A stretch of DNA of 64,000 bases from Lachnoclostridium sp. An196. Its GTDB lineage: Bacteria > Bacillota > Clostridia > Lachnospirales > Lachnospiraceae. This document shows, in pieces, positions 3,882-41,012 of the stretch. The first letter of the stretch is position 1; each line of letters opens with the position of its first letter. The stretch is taken from positions 62,001 to 126,000 of the forward strand of contig NZ_NFJZ01000007.1 in NCBI RefSeq assembly GCF_002160135.1, read 5' to 3'. Under the pieces are notes generated by a model. That model was not told the origin of the DNA, did no database searches, and saw only the letters and a program-made list of their open reading frames with translations. Both the position numbers and the translations under genes were made by a program.

Positions 3882-4457
3882 ATGGCAAACGTAGGGAAGA
3901 ATATTCGGATTCTGAGAACCAGGAAAAAGATGACACAGGATGCGCTGGCAGAAAAGCTTTTTGTCAGCCGTCAGACTGTGTCTAATTATGAAACCGGGAA
4001 AACCCGCCCTGATATAGATACCCTGGTAAAAATTGCAGACATCATGGAAGTGGATGTAAACGTCCTGATCCATGGCATGCCATCGCAGGAAAACACCCGG
4101 AATGCCAGAATTCGAAGTACCGCACTTCTGGCAGCGACAGTTATTTTTGGATTTTTATTATTTTCCTTTTCCGATTATATGAATCTTCTGAGACAGCATA
4201 CCATGCGGTCAGCTCCTTATTATCTGACCCTCTCCCTGGCCTTTCCGGCTTATTATCTGCTGGCAGATTATCTTGGTATCATCCGCCGTACCCGCTTTTT
4301 CGGCATTGAATCTGCCTGGGATTTTATTGCCAGCAAACTTTTTGCTGTCGTAACACATCAAAAAACACCGTTCTTCTTCCTTCCCATGGGTATTGCCCTC
4401 TGGATCACAAAACCGCGCAAATCCTGTTCCCAGAATCACACCGCCGACATTTCCTGA
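3882..4457 (+). CDS. Membrane-anchored XRE-family HTH regulator (paralog 1)
   Basis: I place the start at ATG 3882 (191 residues) because GGAGGTG lies just upstream; a longer open frame from 3819 has no ribosome site. Residues about 5-60 form a classic Cro/C1-type helix-turn-helix (IRILRTRKKMTQDALAEKL, then VSRQTVSNYETGK). The rest holds about three hydrophobic segments (from near residue 80, near 112, and at the C-terminus), so the DNA-binding domain is probably tethered to the membrane. The C-terminal PMGIALWITK closely matches the end of the XRE gene at 5734, so the two are paralogs. Its last 22 bases overlap the convergent nuclease gene. Targets and ligand are unknown. Confidence 0.8.
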   Translation: MANVGKNIRILRTRKKMTQDALAEKLFVSRQTVSNYETGKTRPDIDTLVKIADIMEVDVNVLIHGMPSQENTRNARIRSTALLAATVIFGFLLFSFSDYMNLLRQHTMRSAPYYLTLSLAFPAYYLLADYLGIIRRTRFFGIESAWDFIASKLFAVVTHQKTPFFFLPMGIALWITKPRKSCSQNHTADIS

Positions 4458-5431
4458 ATCAGACGGCGGATAGTATCCACACTGTCCTCCAGTTCCTCTG
4501 CTATGGTCTCCGGATCTTTTCCTTTTTGAAGTTTTCTGGAAATTAATTCTTTTAATTTACCATCTATACCTTTTTCTATTCCTTCTTCTATTCCCTTTTC
4601 CTTCCCGTCTTCAAAAATCTCTTCTAATGCCTTACACATATCTGTTTCCCCCTCTCTTTCAAAAATATTGTTTTCTGCCAGCCATTTTTCAGAGTTCAAA
4701 AATACCCCCAGCGCTCGGTAACTGTCTACATTCATATGTTGAAAATATGATTTATTCTCTTCCACATATTCTAAAATCTTTTCCTTCTTTTCTCTGTATT
4801 TTATCATATTTAATACATATTGTAAATCAGTTTGAAACACAGTTGTGTCTTCCAATCGCTCCACATCCACAAGATTAACAGCATAATTGGGTATGTACTT
4901 TCGTATTTTCGCATCACTGCCGTCGATTTCTTTTGGAAAAATCATTTCATATAAATCCCTGCTCCCATCCCAAGGAATAGAACCATAATAAAACACCAAA
5001 GTGATCACAGGATATAACCGGTCTGTCTTTCGAAAATGTGAGAGAAATTCTTCTGACGCTATATTTTGTTTGTTTTTCTCCTCGTCTTTCCATGCTTCTT
5101 CTATCTGTTCTGCATAAGACAGTCCGTCATAAATCATAGTCCTCACCGGCATCGCATAATGAATACGTTCCTGATTTTCTATCGCCAGAATCGTAAATTC
5201 CGCCTTGTTATTCCATCGCATTGCCACATCCCGGTAACGTTGTATTCCTCGTCCTTTCTTTTGTTTTCTATCCAACTTATCTGGTATAAATAAGTCCGTC
5301 TCCCGATCCAGCTTTTCCAGCTGATCCGGCAACACAATCTGTTGTCCCTGAAACAAACAGCCATTCATCAAATCCGCAAATCGTCCTTTTTGAGAAAGCC
5401 ATTTGTTTACAATTACATTGTTTTTGCTCAT
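4436..5431 (-). CDS. Rpn-type (transposase_31-like) PD-(D/E)XK nuclease family protein
   Basis: A 331-residue protein resembling the Rpn 'recombination-promoting nuclease/putative transposase' family, which is abundant in Lachnospiraceae. The segment FTILAIENQERIHYAMPVR near residues 80-100, followed by YDGLSYAEQIEEAW and the PVITLVFYYGSIPWDG strand, is typical. The C-terminal third is charged, with repeated EKGI(E/D) turns and a short HTH-like tail. No inverted repeats or target duplications flank it, so it is a family member rather than a demonstrable transposon. It converges on, and overlaps by 22 bases, the upstream XRE gene. Confidence 0.75.
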   Translation of the reverse strand: MSKNNVIVNKWLSQKGRFADLMNGCLFQGQQIVLPDQLEKLDRETDLFIPDKLDRKQKKGRGIQRYRDVAMRWNNKAEFTILAIENQERIHYAMPVRTMIYDGLSYAEQIEEAWKDEEKNKQNIASEEFLSHFRKTDRLYPVITLVFYYGSIPWDGSRDLYEMIFPKEIDGSDAKIRKYIPNYAVNLVDVERLEDTTVFQTDLQYVLNMIKYREKKEKILEYVEENKSYFQHMNVDSYRALGVFLNSEKWLAENNIFEREGETDMCKALEEIFEDGKEKGIEEGIEKGIDGKLKELISRKLQKGKDPETIAEELEDSVDTIRRLIQEMSAV

Positions 5432-5733
5432 GTAAACCCCCTATAAAATTTTCTGTCAATGGAAAACACAAGAAGCAGAACGCTCCCTGTCAGATTGATA
5501 TGTTGAACTTATCACAATCCAGATAAACATTCAAGGCCTGTTTCAAAGCTTTTATATAGAATTTTACGTGACCTTGCACACCGAATATGGTATAATGAGC
5601 GCAGCGTGCGGATTATACCATCGCGCATGCCGGTTTCTGCGCTCGCCGCAGAAAGCCGGGCGCATCCGCCGGAGGCATCATGTCTGCGAAGCAGACATGA
5701 TACAGTAAAAACAAAAATCCAGGAAGGTGCAGT
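5432..5733. other. 302-base spacer between divergent nuclease and XRE genes
   Basis: This spacer separates the nuclease gene (minus) from the second XRE gene (plus). It contains the structured 115-bp repeat at 5588-5702. A possible promoter for the XRE gene is GTGACC (5568-5573) with a 17-base spacer to TATAAT (5591-5596), where the TATAAT is supplied by the repeat arm itself. I see no convincing ORF in it. Confidence 0.5.
5588..5702. repeat. 115-bp structured dispersed repeat, copy 1 (inverted relative to the other copies)
   Basis: Three stem-loops in a row: TGGTATAAT/ATTATACCA (5588-5596 with 5612-5620), a GCCGGTTTCTGCG/CGCAGAAAGCCGG stem near 5629-5660, and CATGTCTGC/GCAGACATG near 5679-5699. 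The same 115-bp unit occurs twice in tandem at 37787-38011 in the opposite orientation. Arm differences between copies are paired (C-G replaced by T-A), so the foldable structure is maintained. It is non-coding, GC-rich and unlike its surroundings, similar in style to REP/BIME or MITE-like elements. Confidence 0.85.
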
Positions 5734-6402
5734 ATGTCGATCGTTGGAAAAAATATACAGATTCTCAGAATGAAAAAAAGAATGTCCCAGAATGATCTGG
5801 CAAAGAAAATATCTGTCAGTTTTCAGGATATTTCAGACTATGAATCCGGTAAATCCGAACCCGACATTGACACACTGGTAAAAATTGCAGATATTCTGGA
5901 GACTGATGCGAATACTTTGATCTATGGAATACCAGACGAAACCAGCATCAGAACCAAACGCAGACAGATACTGCTTCTTCTGATCGTCCTTCTCTTCCTG
6001 GGCGTCATCCTGTCCCGGCTTTCTTACGGCTTCCAGATTTCAAGAGGGACACGGCTGAATGCCGCACCTTTACTGTTTTTACATCCCCTGATTTTACCCT
6101 GTTATTTTACTCTGACCGGATGGACTGTCATGCAGGCAGCCGGATACTTTCTTCATGCCCGGCCTCTTTCCGGCAGATTCTGCAGGATCGTACATATTTT
6201 ACTTTGCAATTTGATGGGGATCTACTGCATCCTCGTTCTTCTGGCAGATATCATCCTGCTTGGATTCTATACTCCCTGGGTCAACGCCGCGGCGGGAATT
6301 TTCGCGGCTGCCGTACTGCCGAATATACCACTTATATTTTTCATCCTGGGTATCGCGCTCTGGATTACGAAGTCTTCTTTTCGCTCTTCTCCTCTTCCTT
6401 GA
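5734..6402 (+). CDS. Membrane-anchored XRE-family HTH regulator (paralog 2)
   Basis: A 222-residue paralog of the gene at 3882. Residues 5-60 carry the HTH (IQILRMKKRMSQNDLAKKI, then ISDYESGKSEPDIDTLVKIA), nearly superimposable on paralog 1. Downstream are about four hydrophobic segments (near 82-102, 115-140, 150-175 and 185-215) ending in ILGIALWITK. AGGAAGGTG precedes the start. Its 3' end overlaps the convergent DUF1622 gene by 38 bases. Likely a membrane-tethered transcription factor; the signal sensed and the targets are unknown. Confidence 0.8.
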   Translation: MSIVGKNIQILRMKKRMSQNDLAKKISVSFQDISDYESGKSEPDIDTLVKIADILETDANTLIYGIPDETSIRTKRRQILLLLIVLLFLGVILSRLSYGFQISRGTRLNAAPLLFLHPLILPCYFTLTGWTVMQAAGYFLHARPLSGRFCRIVHILLCNLMGIYCILVLLADIILLGFYTPWVNAAAGIFAAAVLPNIPLIFFILGIALWITKSSFRSSPLP

Positions 6403-16198: not shown

Positions 16199-16204
16199 AA
16201 AAGA

Positions 16205-16330
16205 AAGAACTGCACGACTGGCGGAAAGCAGGGATATCCTGTGGTAGGGAAACCTACAGGGAGTGCAGATCATCAAGAAAGCCGACCGCCTGGGCGCATG
16301 CAGAATCTGCCTGCGTTCAGGCGGTTTTTC
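16205..16330 (+). ncRNA. ZTP (pfl) riboswitch
   Basis: The leader shows the pfl-motif layout. P1 is CTGCAC (16210-16215) with GTGCAG (16263-16268), and an internal hairpin is capped by GGGAAACC. After a linker comes the conserved 3' element GCCGACCGCCTGGGC (16281-16295), which forms the pseudoknot and ZMP site. These RNAs sense ZMP/ZTP, the purine intermediates that build up when 10-formyl-THF is short. The downstream genes are the two enzymes that consume ZMP, which fits exactly. ZTP binding should keep the 3' element out of the terminator and switch genes on. Confidence 0.93.
16285..16330 (+). terminator. Riboswitch-controlled intrinsic terminator
   Basis: ACCGCCTG (16285-16292), part of the riboswitch core, can instead pair with CAGGCGGT (16318-16325), followed by a T-run. 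The two pairings exclude each other, which is the expected anti-termination switch. Confidence 0.88.
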
Positions 16331-36846: not shown

Positions 36847-37647
36847 TTATGCGTGTTTTTTATAGTCCAGACGTATCTTATCCGCGATCAGGGCGATAAA
36901 CTCTGAATTTGTCGGCTTTCCTTTCCCGACGCTGACGGTGTAGCCGAACAGCTCGTCGATGGTATCCATTTTTCCTCTGCTCCATGCGACTTCGATAGCA
37001 TGGCGGATCGCGCGCTCCACTCTGCTGGGCGTAGTCTTATGATTCTTTGCAATCGTCGGATACAGAATCTTCGTGATGGAATTCAGCATGTTCATATCTT
37101 CCACCGCCATCATGATCGCATCCCTGAGATACTGATACCCTTTAATATGGGCTGGTACGCCGATCTCATGAATCATGTTGGTCACGTCTGTCTCCAGATT
37201 CCTTTCCAGATAATCAGCTTTGGCCTCGTAGGGGAGCATCTTCATGCCCTCCGGTCTCTTCCTGTGCCGGTTTTCTTTCAGGCTGCGGATTCTGCTGAGC
37301 AGCATGTCATGATCAAACGGTTTCATAATGTAATAACTGGCTCCCAACAGGAACGCATCCTCCGTAATTCTCTCCTGGCCGATCGCCGAGATCACTACGA
37401 ATTCCGGTTTCTTGCGGATATTGGCATCATGTCCGATCCGCTCCATGACAGTCAGGCCGTCGAGCTTGGGCATGATAATATCCAGGAGCATGATGTCCGG
37501 CTCCTTCTCACGGATTACCTGACATGCTTCTTCTCCGTTTCTGGCAATGCCTACAATCTGGAGTTCTTCGTCCTGGCGCAGAATCCCGTCCAGGATCTCC
37601 ACCATTCTTTCGTTGTCGTCCACAATTGCAACACTCCATCTGCTCAT
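36847..37647 (-). CDS. spo0A: Sporulation master regulator Spo0A
   Basis: A 266-residue response regulator. The receiver (about 1-125) has [10 protein letters not shown] with acidic residues, phospho-acceptor Asp56 in [12 protein letters not shown], and [10 protein letters not shown] with the conserved Lys. The C-terminal Spo0A-specific effector (about 150-266) contains [20 protein letters not shown], the recognition helix region. The start is ATG 37647 with GAGGAGG upstream. It is the main evidence that the organism sporulates. It has its own promoter. Confidence 0.97.
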
Positions 37648-37726
37648 CCATAATCCTCCTCGTTTCCCATTTTTCCTGTCTCCTTTCAACAGCTTCATAC
37701 AAAAGCTTTCATCATTCACAGTGAAA

Positions 37727-37781
37727 ATTATAGAGAAACCGGCAATTCCTTACAAGCAGATAGTATCGGGGGTTTTCGACA
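37727..37781 (-). promoter_or_regulatory. spo0A promoter with upstream 0A box
   Basis: On the minus strand TTGTAA (37755-37750), 17 bases, TATAAT (37732-37727). Nineteen bases upstream of the -35 is TGTCGAA (37781-37775), a consensus Spo0A-binding 0A box. This fits autoregulation, as known in other spore formers. Confidence 0.6.
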
Positions 37782-37786
37782 TATTG

Positions 37787-37901
37787 TGCCATGTCCGCTG
37801 CGCGGACATGGCGCCTCCGGCGGATGCGCCCGGATTTCTGCGGCCAGCGCGGAAACCCGGGTGCGCGTTGGCATATTTCGCGCCCTGCGCTCACTATGCC
37901 A
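37787..37901. repeat. 115-bp structured dispersed repeat, copy 2
   Basis: The same unit as at 5588, in opposite orientation. Stems: CCATGTCCGC/GCGGACATGG near 37789-37811, a middle TTTCTGCG/CGCGGAAA stem, and the terminal TGGCATA (37869-37875) with TATGCCA (37895-37901). Relative to the other copies the terminal stem has T-A changed to C-G on both arms. It shares its last five bases with copy 3. Confidence 0.85.
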
Positions 37902-38011
37902 TGTCCGCTCCGCGGACATGGCGCCTCCGGCGGATGCGCCCGGCTTTCTGCGGCAAGCGCAGAAACCGGCATGCGCGATGGTATAATTCGCACTTCGCGC
38001 TCATTATACCA
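37897..38011. repeat. 115-bp structured dispersed repeat, copy 3, overlapping the efflux pump stop codon
   Basis: In tandem with copy 2 and closest to copy 1. The terminal stem is TGGTATAAT (37979-37987) with ATTATACCA (38003-38011). The stop codon of the RND permease (38006-38004) lies inside this arm. Together copies 2 and 3 fill most of the 356 bases between spo0A and the pump gene. Confidence 0.88.
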
Positions 38012-41000
38012 TGTTCGCCTCGTTCATTTTCTGCTCTTTTTTGTACTTTCTTCCATAGAAAATCAGATAGAAAACAGGCATCAGGATCAGGATCAGCAGC
38101 GTGGACGCCACCAGGCCTCCGATAATGATAATATACATGCCCTGCATCATCTGATTGCCTTCTCCGATACCCAGTGCTCCCGGCACCATGGAAATAATTG
38201 TCGTCAGAGTCGTGATCAGGATCGGACGAAGCCTCGTCTTGGCACTCTCAATCAGCGCGTCCTCCAGAGCCATTTCCGTTCTGAGCAGGTTCACTCCGTC
38301 CACATACAGGATACCGTTGTTTACCACAATGCCCGCCAGCATCAGAACTCCCATCAGGGAAATCATACTGAATGAAGATCCCGACAGGAACAGAAGTCCG
38401 AAGGATCCGATCAGGCTGAACGGAATGCTCAGCATCACCATCAGCGAATACCGGGGAGATTCAAACTGCATCGCCATCACCAAAAATACCAGGAAAATTG
38501 CCGCTGCCAGAGCGAGCCCCAGAGAACGGAATGACTCGTTCATCATCTCGTCCATCGTATTGACCGATATTTCCACAGAATCCGGGAAATCTTCCTCTTC
38601 TGCCAGCCGGTCCATCTCCGCCTGAACAGCGTCTGTATCTTCCGACAGACAGGTGGCAGACACGGTCATTACGTAAGCTCCGTCCTCTCTGGTCACAGTC
38701 TGCTGCGAATTCGTATATTCCAGAGAAGCGATCTCAGACAGAGGAATTCCCGAAACGTTTGCATCCATCAGGCTGTCCGCGTTTGTATATGTCCCCTCCG
38801 GGTATTCCAGAACTACGCTGTATTCCTGCCCATTGGATGTCACCGTCATAGCCTCCGTACCGCTGATCATACTGTAAAGACTGCCCGCCGCCTGAGCAGG
38901 AGTCATGCCGTAGCTCATGGCATTCAGCGGATCGATCAATACACGGACCTGCGTGGAACTCTCTCCCGCGCTGGAACTTACATTCAGCACGCCCGGGATA
39001 TTCCAGGAGACTTCTTCCATCACCGCAACCGCTTCCTGCAGATCTTCCAGATCTGTGGATGTCAGCGTGACAGATCCGCCGGATCCGCTGGTCATCATAG
39101 AGGATATCGTACTGCTGGTCGAAATCTCCAGCTGCATATCCGTAAAGTCTTTTGTCTCTTCCGTCCACTGATCGGCTATTTCCTGGCTGGACATATTCCG
39201 GTCATCTTTCAGATTGACGGAAATCGAGCCGGATCCGTCCGAAGCTGTCATCGTATAGCTCTCCACATCCTCATGGGACGCGACCATATCCTCGAGCCGC
39301 GCCATTCTCTCCTCCACAAGGGACACCTTTGTGCCCGGACGCATGGACGCGCTGATACTGACCGTTCCTTCATCCATGGCCGGAATCAGTTCTGTATCCA
39401 TGAGACTTACCAATCCGAGGGAAAATACCAACAGCGCGACCGATACAAGCACCGCCGTTTTCTTCCGGTTCAGAAGCTTCCGCTCTGTCTTCTCATATCC
39501 GGTTTTTACTTTATCCAGCAGGACATTGATCTTCAGCTCTTTCTTCTCCTTCGGACGGAAATACTTAAAGAACAGCGGCACCAGAGTGATCGCGGACACC
39601 AGCGAAGCCAGCATGGCGATGATAATCGTGTATCCCAGCTGTCCGAATATCTGTCCGCTCAGCCCTTGCTGCAGGCACAACGGCAGATATACAACTACTG
39701 TCGTAATCGTGGATGCCACGATGGATCCTACCACTTCTCCGGTCCCGTGAAGCGCCGCTTCATTATGATCCAGATCTTTGTCCTTATACCGGAAACAGCT
39801 TTCCAGCACTACGCTGGAACTGTCCACCATCATACCGATCGCGATGACCAGCGCTCCTAATGTGATCATATTCAGTGAAAATCCGCACACTGCCATCAGA
39901 ATCACCGTAGCCAGAAGAGAGATCGGCATAGAACTCCCCACGATCAGGCTGGCCTTGATGTCTCCGAAGAAGATCAGGAGCACCGCCATGGTCAGCACCA
40001 CGCCCAGAGCAAGCGTACTTCCCACAGAACTTACCGATTCCATGATCATATCAGAAGCATCATAGGAAATCTCAGCAGTCATCCCCTCGTGTTCCTGCAC
40101 CATCCGGTCCATAACTTCTTTCACATCATTTACCATGCCGATGGTGCTGGCGCTCTGGTTCTTGGTCACGCTGACCGATACCGTATCCTGTCCGTTAAAA
40201 CGGCTCACGCTGTCCGCATCCTGAACCGCCCAGCTCACATCCGCCACATCTGCAAGGCGGATCAGACTGCCTGTAGAGGTATAAAGCGGAATCTCCTGCA
40301 GGTCCTGTACCGTCTCAATATCGGCAGTGCTGGAAGCGCTGATAGACTGCGATCCCTGTTCCAGCGTTCCCAGAGGAATCATGAAATCGGCCGCGCCCAC
40401 ATACTGCGCCACCTGGCTCATGCTCAGGCCGTACTGGTTCAATGCCTCTTCATCCAGCATCACCCGGATATAATTTTCCTCTCCTCCGGTCACATCTACG
40501 CTGGCTACCGTACTGATCGCTTCCAGTTCCGGTACGATCTCATCATTGACCAGCGTCAGCGTATCCGTGCCTTCTTCCGCGCTGACCGAATAACTGATGC
40601 TGGGCATAGAATTGACGTTCATCTCAATAACTACCGGATCCTGGCAGTCATCCGGCAGCGACGCCGCGGTAGCGTCCAACGCGGCGCGCAGATCCAGGTA
40701 CGCTTCATCCGTATCCACACTGTAGTCATACTGCAGGATAACCATAGAGACATTTTCCTGAGAGTAGGTCATAACAGAATCCACACCGCTCAGGCTGGAA
40801 ACATCGCCTTCAATCTCTGTGCTGACCAGCTCATCCACAGACTTCGGATCGGCGCCCGGATAAACCGTCATGACCATCAAGATCGGCATATCCATATCCG
40901 GCATCAGTTCCAGACGAAGCGTTGTAAGCGCGGAAAATCCAAACACTGCCAGAGCCAGTACAATCAGAAGCGTGGAGACCGGCCTTCGCAGCGATAATTT

Positions 41001-41012
41001 TGTCAAGCCCAT
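38004..41012 (-). CDS. RND-family efflux permease
   Basis: A 1002-residue AcrB/HAE-type permease with 12 expected helices and two large extracytoplasmic domains, each inserted after the first helix of a half. LSLRRPVSTLLIVLALAVFG starts helix 1; PISLLATVILMAVCGFSLNMITLGALVIAIGMMVDSS-type sequence near 370 holds the charged relay; the second half ends VSTLLILILMPVFYLIFYGR-like. Gram-positive versions work without an outer-membrane channel. It follows its adaptor by 2 bases. The stop codon is in the structured repeat. Confidence 0.93.
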   Translation of the reverse strand: MGLTKLSLRRPVSTLLIVLALAVFGFSALTTLRLELMPDMDMPILMVMTVYPGADPKSVDELVSTEIEGDVSSLSGVDSVMTYSQENVSMVILQYDYSVDTDEAYLDLRAALDATAASLPDDCQDPVVIEMNVNSMPSISYSVSAEEGTDTLTLVNDEIVPELEAISTVASVDVTGGEENYIRVMLDEEALNQYGLSMSQVAQYVGAADFMIPLGTLEQGSQSISASSTADIETVQDLQEIPLYTSTGSLIRLADVADVSWAVQDADSVSRFNGQDTVSVSVTKNQSASTIGMVNDVKEVMDRMVQEHEGMTAEISYDASDMIMESVSSVGSTLALGVVLTMAVLLIFFGDIKASLIVGSSMPISLLATVILMAVCGFSLNMITLGALVIAIGMMVDSSSVVLESCFRYKDKDLDHNEAALHGTGEVVGSIVASTITTVVVYLPLCLQQGLSGQIFGQLGYTIIIAMLASLVSAITLVPLFFKYFRPKEKKELKINVLLDKVKTGYEKTERKLLNRKKTAVLVSVALLVFSLGLVSLMDTELIPAMDEGTVSISASMRPGTKVSLVEERMARLEDMVASHEDVESYTMTASDGSGSISVNLKDDRNMSSQEIADQWTEETKDFTDMQLEISTSSTISSMMTSGSGGSVTLTSTDLEDLQEAVAVMEEVSWNIPGVLNVSSSAGESSTQVRVLIDPLNAMSYGMTPAQAAGSLYSMISGTEAMTVTSNGQEYSVVLEYPEGTYTNADSLMDANVSGIPLSEIASLEYTNSQQTVTREDGAYVMTVSATCLSEDTDAVQAEMDRLAEEEDFPDSVEISVNTMDEMMNESFRSLGLALAAAIFLVFLVMAMQFESPRYSLMVMLSIPFSLIGSFGLLFLSGSSFSMISLMGVLMLAGIVVNNGILYVDGVNLLRTEMALEDALIESAKTRLRPILITTLTTIISMVPGALGIGEGNQMMQGMYIIIIGGLVASTLLILILMPVFYLIFYGRKYKKEQKMNEANMV

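Follow-up and report, generated by a model that had tools for sequence, protein, structure and literature searches.

A folded repeat that lies just upstream of a gene raises two questions: what kind of element it is, and how it came to occupy that position. The repeat considered here stands once at site 1 and as an inverted tandem pair at site 2 of the window, the whole 64,000-nucleotide stretch of DNA that was analysed. The three copies reported by the first-pass annotation are all present (Table 1). Its 115-bp stretches also recur as described, but the true period is 110 bp rather than 115 bp, the remaining 5 bp (TGnTA) being common to the tandem copies. A BLAST search of the own genome (G000) returned 12 matches, of which 10 span all or nearly all of the unit and 2 are partial, with a best E-value of 9e-55. 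The initial caveat that only three copies might exist did not hold, as further copies occur in this genome and in relatives, among them two sister species (G013 and G014) that supplied alleles for comparison.

Table 1 Features of the two element-bearing sites in the window.
Feature	Position	Strand	Basis or remark
Rpn-like gene (PF04754 Transposase_31), adjoining copy 1	4436–5431	−	
Native −35-like hexamer GTGACC, 17 bp 5' of the element's TATAAT	5568–5573	+	Sequence; GTGACT at equal spacing before TACAGT in G013
Hairpin A, TGGTATAAT...ATTATACCA, with an extended −10 (TGnTATAAT) as its left arm	5588–5620	+	Predicted fold; kept in the 56-unit alignment
Inserted 110-bp unit, copy 1	5591–5700	+	G013 allele lacks exactly these 110 bp; 5588–5702 is the unit plus 5-bp TGnTA flank
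Hairpin B	5623–5663	+	Predicted fold; covariation
Mini-hairpin M, GCC-GGA-GGC	5668–5676	+	Predicted fold; variants in relatives
Hairpin C	5677–5701	+	Predicted fold; covariation; G-U bias
Native −10 TACAGT, directly 3' of the insert	5701–5706	+	Identical in the element-free G013 allele
Downstream gene of copy 1, 222 aa, HTH_3 (XRE-type) protein	5734–6402	+	
spo0A, downstream of site 2	36847–37719	−	Spo0A_C and TIGR02875
Two-unit, 229-bp insert of site 2	37787–38015	−	Not present in either G013 or G014
Unit 2 of the tandem pair, 5 bp common with unit 1	37787–37901	−	
Unit 1 of the tandem pair	37897–38011	−	
RND permease gene (ACR_tran), stop codon now within the element	38004–41012	−	

The unit is composed of four stems: hairpin A (TGGTATAAT...ATTATACCA), hairpin B, the mini-hairpin M (NCC-GGA-GGN) and hairpin C, which is followed by the next A. 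The three hairpins originally proposed are retained, and the 3-bp mini-hairpin with its GGA loop, which is missing from some relatives, is added to them. The predicted fold has an energy of −57.3 kcal/mol, compared with −41.5 ± 3.8 for shuffled sequences (z −4.2; opposite strand, z −5.0). Two of the paired changes first noticed among the three copies are seen in the sequence, namely the terminal stem TGGTATA/TATACCA, which becomes TGGCATA/TATGCCA in the copy at 37787–37901, and CATGTCCGC/GCGGACATG, which becomes CATGTCTGC/GCAGACATG in the copy at 5588. The third, a middle-stem change from U-A to U-G, holds on the antisense strand only; on the gene-sense strand the pair is C-A, and broken (columns 66/78). 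TATAAT hexamers are present on both strands as reported, and the sense-strand one proved central.

Variant forms of the unit were also seen. Short forms at L012, L024 and L026 comprise only hairpin A with CGCGCATG or CGCGCGTG, with one common end point at the three loci. At L120, L040, L106 and L139, the left and right hairpins A share locus-specific changes, as if copied from A to A or both derived from a resident A. A conserved small open reading frame with a Shine-Dalgarno sequence in hairpin C (GGAGG followed by ATG or GTG) was considered and rejected as a defining part, since only 26 of the 56 aligned units carry it. At two sites, L006 and L023, a Shine-Dalgarno–ATG pair within hairpin C opens a frame running into the downstream gene, which could be due to chance.

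Whether the fold itself is maintained was assessed on an alignment of 56 units from 19 genomes and 14 genera, made with MAFFT without structural information. Before any counting, up to six units per genome were chosen, all with hairpin B in its common form; units with the second form of this hairpin (L051, L053, L057 and L061 are examples) were left out. RNAalifold predicted 36 pairs, 27 of them with double changes. With a fixed 36-pair structure, 96.4% of cells pair, a percentage that is favoured because the structure was derived from the same alignment; the double changes are the stronger evidence. Compensatory double changes occur at 26 of the 36 pairs, against 15.3 in shuffles, and in 211 cells, against 50.1 ± 8.5, counts that are not corrected for relatedness. 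None of 500 shuffles reached any of five measures, and sliding the structure along the alignment lowered pairing to 28–45%. Adding relatives, which do carry compensatory changes, gives strong support to the early claim that the folded form is important; the three copies alone were insufficient.

The RNA strand alone can hold G-U pairs, which appear as A-C on the opposite strand. On the gene-sense strand of the MAFFT alignment, collapsed by genus, G-U exceeds A-C by 45:12 over all stems (p 1e-5), which points to the sense RNA as the folded molecule. By hairpin, the ratios are 29:7 for C (p 3e-4), 9:4 for B and 7:1 for A, of which only C is significant alone. A second alignment fitted to the covariance model (96 of 125 rows) gave 84:39, a count that leans on the model, with the inner stem of B going the opposite way (13:18). 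These data show that the sense RNA is under structural constraint, and they support the proposal of an RNA element.

The element is patchily distributed. Within the genus it was found in 5 of 17 genomes by DNA search and in 6 of 17 by the covariance model R1, which was used for all model-based genome searches. In the own genome, R1 gives 13 matches, including two opposite-strand shadows; solo A pieces are recovered by the DNA search but not by R1. In a family sample, 35 of 397 genomes and 31 of 334 genera matched at E ≤ 1e-3. Two of 392 genomes matched in the order sample, both within the same family, and one of 398 in the phylum sample, the own genome; neither sample gave a match in any other family. 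In model searches of more than 40 genomes, scoring was limited to nine candidates per genome under stricter filters, so that copies can be missed and copy numbers are lower bounds. The family is apparently Lachnospiraceae, to judge from the named exact-pattern matches, which fall in two 'uncultured Lachnoclostridium sp.' metagenome-assembled genomes. This family is common in the gut. Units are 86% similar within a genome and 74% between genera.

In Rfam, searches of L001, L014 and L015 at E ≤ 1 gave no sense-strand match to the unit. The only match above the gathering score in the window lies elsewhere, a ZMP/ZTP riboswitch at 16204–16302 (+) with 51.8 bits. No title or abstract among the open-access papers listed was found to describe this repeat or an element that targets −10 boxes, which does not by itself show absence from print. 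The repeat is real, and it belongs to a family found in none of the databases or literature searched.

The orientation of the element is strongly biased towards genes. For neighbour, −35-spacing and gene-start counts, the overlapping or duplicate loci L004, L007, L010, L012, L016, L027 and L103 were dropped. The 3' neighbour lies on the same strand at 84 of 98 loci (p 2.5e-13), whereas the 5' neighbour is divided 53:47. The 98 are those with a called 3' neighbour and no open reading frame across the element, 12 of 112 being left out because the element lies within a called frame; L002, L005, L006 and L017, among the 14 exceptions, have known sense genes that the simple caller misses. With a Shine-Dalgarno criterion, a gene start within 150 nt is found at 54 of the 112 loci on the 3' sense side only, at 7 on the 5' antisense side only, at 7 on both and at 44 on neither. 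The downstream genes are unrelated, with 136 Pfam families in 99 proteins, the commonest (Response_reg) seven times. A gene-specific riboswitch or other cis-regulatory RNA was rejected on this ground, there being no common class of downstream gene.

Element-free alleles were found in sister genomes, for example at sites 1 and 2. At nine of ten comparable sites, read from sister-species alleles without the element, the target is a native −10 box and the unit points to the gene. After insertion, the native −35 is still 17 bp from the left-end TATAAT of the element, whose 3' end (CATGn) puts TGn before the native −10; a −10 is thus remade there. At site 1, the element-free G013 reads GTGACT-17-TACAGT and G000 reads GTGACC-17-[TATAATG...110 bp...CATGA]TACAGT. 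The L023 site reads TTGGAA-17-TATAATGAACC in G000 and G013, and is exactly 110 bp longer in G014. The L029 site reads TTGAAA-17-TATAAT in G000 and G013, with the G014 element at equal spacing and comprising 109 bp with a partial A at the right. Upstream of nfeD, the element measures 220 bp in G000 and 110 bp in G013, and is decayed in G014; no element occurs in the 380 bp upstream in any of the 12 further genus members compared (G015, for instance, reads TTGTCA-17-TATAAT). At the L014, L032 and L006 sites (110, 127 and 220 bp, respectively), the other allele has a TATAAT box, and at L019 and L003 the alleles differ by a solo A versus A-B-C-A.

The exception among the ten is site 2, where the insert is 229 bp, no multiple of 110, and lies at a gene end with no −10 box. 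Flanked by GAGGCG and TAATATG, it lies upstream of spo0A and at the 3' end of the RND permease gene, which gains three codons and a stop from it. There the insert joins native sequence at 37778–37786 that reads ATGTCGAAAA, which resembles a Spo0A box.

The same register recurs across loci, with left flanks that are native, as sister alleles show them. Among 104 left flanks, a −35-like hexamer (at least four of six positions) is found 23 times at a spacing of 17, 12 times each at 16 and 18, and 0–9 times at any other spacing over 8–59. Taking the best of spacings 16–18, 45 sites have at least four of six, compared with 12.9 ± 3.3 for shuffled flanks. Eight of the 112 loci were left out of this count, having no clear left −10, a short or N-containing flank, or a flank inside an array. 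Survival bias could mimic such targeting of −10 boxes.

The alleles also bear on whether the element is gained or only lost. Those at sites 1 and 2 are clean, with no remnant in the sisters. At L023, the sequence GGACATG-TTATAATGA in the shorter allele resembles the 3' end of the element, so that this allele may have arisen by deletion and need not be an original empty site. A-like sequence also persists in the alternative alleles of L006, L032, L019 and L003. Gain and loss thus both occur. The Nfo site offered no usable element-free allele, its distant matches being 40–44% identical and in other contexts, and at L020, L011 and L026 the adjoining DNA did not align between genomes. A second module, reading ..AAGCATGAGCAG.. 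or ..AAGCAATGAGCAGG.. in the two genera concerned, lies directly 3' of the element's TATAATGT at L014, L018 and L031 (G014) and at L121, L123 and L125 (G244), and may represent another repeat family using the same spot.

One alternative is a regulatory or stabilising RNA leader of the host, spread by duplication and gene conversion without active mobility, so that absence from sisters would reflect loss. Constraint on the sense RNA, the sense position before genes, the change of array size at one site and the solo-A alleles all accord with it. We nevertheless consider it improbable, given that the downstream genes are unrelated, that only 6 of 17 genus members have the element, and that the sister alleles of sites 1 and 2 show no remnant.

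A second alternative is a miniature inverted-repeat element (MITE) belonging to a DDE insertion sequence: a resident transposase would act on its terminal inverted repeats to move it, and its promoter position would be survival bias. The element is indeed small, folded and dispersed, with short direct repeats at its ends (TGnTA, containing TA), and such elements are often near genes in the cited passages (PMC10969869, PMC2229807). The 5-bp TGnTA that flanks the insert on both sides, as a target-site duplication would, is at once the target sequence and the end of the unit itself. Compared with shuffles, the insert ends of site 1 and L023 showed no terminal inverted repeats beyond chance: in the frames tried, the ends match as inverted repeats at 8–9 of 20 positions, against a shuffled mean of 7.4–7.6. 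The exact 17-bp register to native −35 boxes also exceeds mere nearness to genes, and we give a MITE only a small chance. Mobility, as the first-pass annotation had suggested under this heading, is supported by the element-free sister alleles; a classical MITE is not, as the 110-bp insert lacks terminal inverted repeats. An A-B-C-A MITE with TA ends was rejected separately, because at site 1 the native −10 directly follows C.

Movement by a Y1 transposase, as for REP or IS200/IS605-like elements, would account for hairpins at both ends, a short oriented target and the lack of inverted repeats, and the GGAG 5' of hairpin C resembles some REPs. Of ten element-bearing genomes searched with PF01797, six had no match (G000, G013, G332, G403, G106 and G272); the other four comprise three with short fragments only (G014, G296 and G244) and one with full genes (G233), whereas all eight element-free genomes tested match. 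This makes the reading very unlikely, and the REP/BIME option is abandoned, the own genome being among the six and the unit being a 110-bp four-hairpin module. A different candidate adjoins copy 1. The Rpn-like gene has three homologues within G000. At a threshold of E ≤ 1e-40, homologues occur in 5 of 6 element-bearing versus 2 of 11 element-free genus members, an association looked at post hoc and confounded by kinship.

Comparison of genomes shows an element that is dispersed at unrelated genes, present or absent between sisters, oriented, placed at −10 boxes and predicted to yield a structured sense RNA. It is probably a small non-autonomous mobile element that targets promoters, is transcribed as a structured leader and relies on a mobiliser acting in trans. 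Transcription would start within hairpin A from the native −35 and the first −10, so that B, M and C would form the structured 5' leader of the transcript, and the extended −10 at the 3' end would give a second start near the gene. A recombinase supplied in trans may join the unit ends at TGnTA, acting on the folded form of the element. Because the rebuilt TGnTATAAT would be a fresh target, arrays may grow in 110-bp steps, as with the two nfeD units in G000 and the single one in G013.

More tentatively, and with considerable doubt, the promoter may be the integration device: the element would enter the −10 box where RNA polymerase melts the DNA, with the folded sense RNA or single-stranded hairpins as substrate, and each insertion would rebuild the extended −10 that is the next target. 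If so, it would represent an RNA-dependent mobile element that is targeted to the promoter bubble and has no known relative. Small folded repeats are common in bacteria, though for most of them neither the mover nor the reason for their gene-adjacent position has been worked out. In the present case, sister genomes give the target as a native −10 box, with the promoter remade on both sides, and the element offers a concrete, testable case of what appears to be rewiring of transcription starts without breaking genes, with the folded RNA conserved.

Among known systems, REP/RAYT and IS200/IS605 derivatives share hairpins and a short oriented target with this element, and differ in their dependence on the Y1 transposase that most of the element-bearing genomes tested here lack. 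BOX, RUP and Correia elements appear nearest in way of life, as far as the cited passages describe them; those passages give no description of insertion into native −10 boxes for any of the three (PMC3049150, PMC10969869, PMC2229807). The RUP element of Streptococcus pneumoniae is likewise dispersed and non-coding, at approximately 107 bp, but has inverted ends matching IS630-Spn1, which are absent here (PMC3049150). Correia/NEMIS elements of Neisseria also carry promoters and lie upstream of genes, and their RNA stem-loops have been proposed to act in mRNA control (PMC10969869, PMC2229807). They differ in having terminal inverted repeats and TA ends (PMC10969869, PMC2229807); neither is found here, the A-B-C-A form having no constant TA after the right A. 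BOX elements of S. pneumoniae, with the arrangement boxA-(boxB)n-boxC, are similarly modular and folded, with variable copy number at one site, and can be transcribed and alter neighbouring genes, a likeness that for the present element is predicted from sequence (PMC3049150). In BOX only the middle module, boxB, is repeated, whereas here the whole unit is repeated with a period of 110 bp and the target is a −10 box (PMC3049150).
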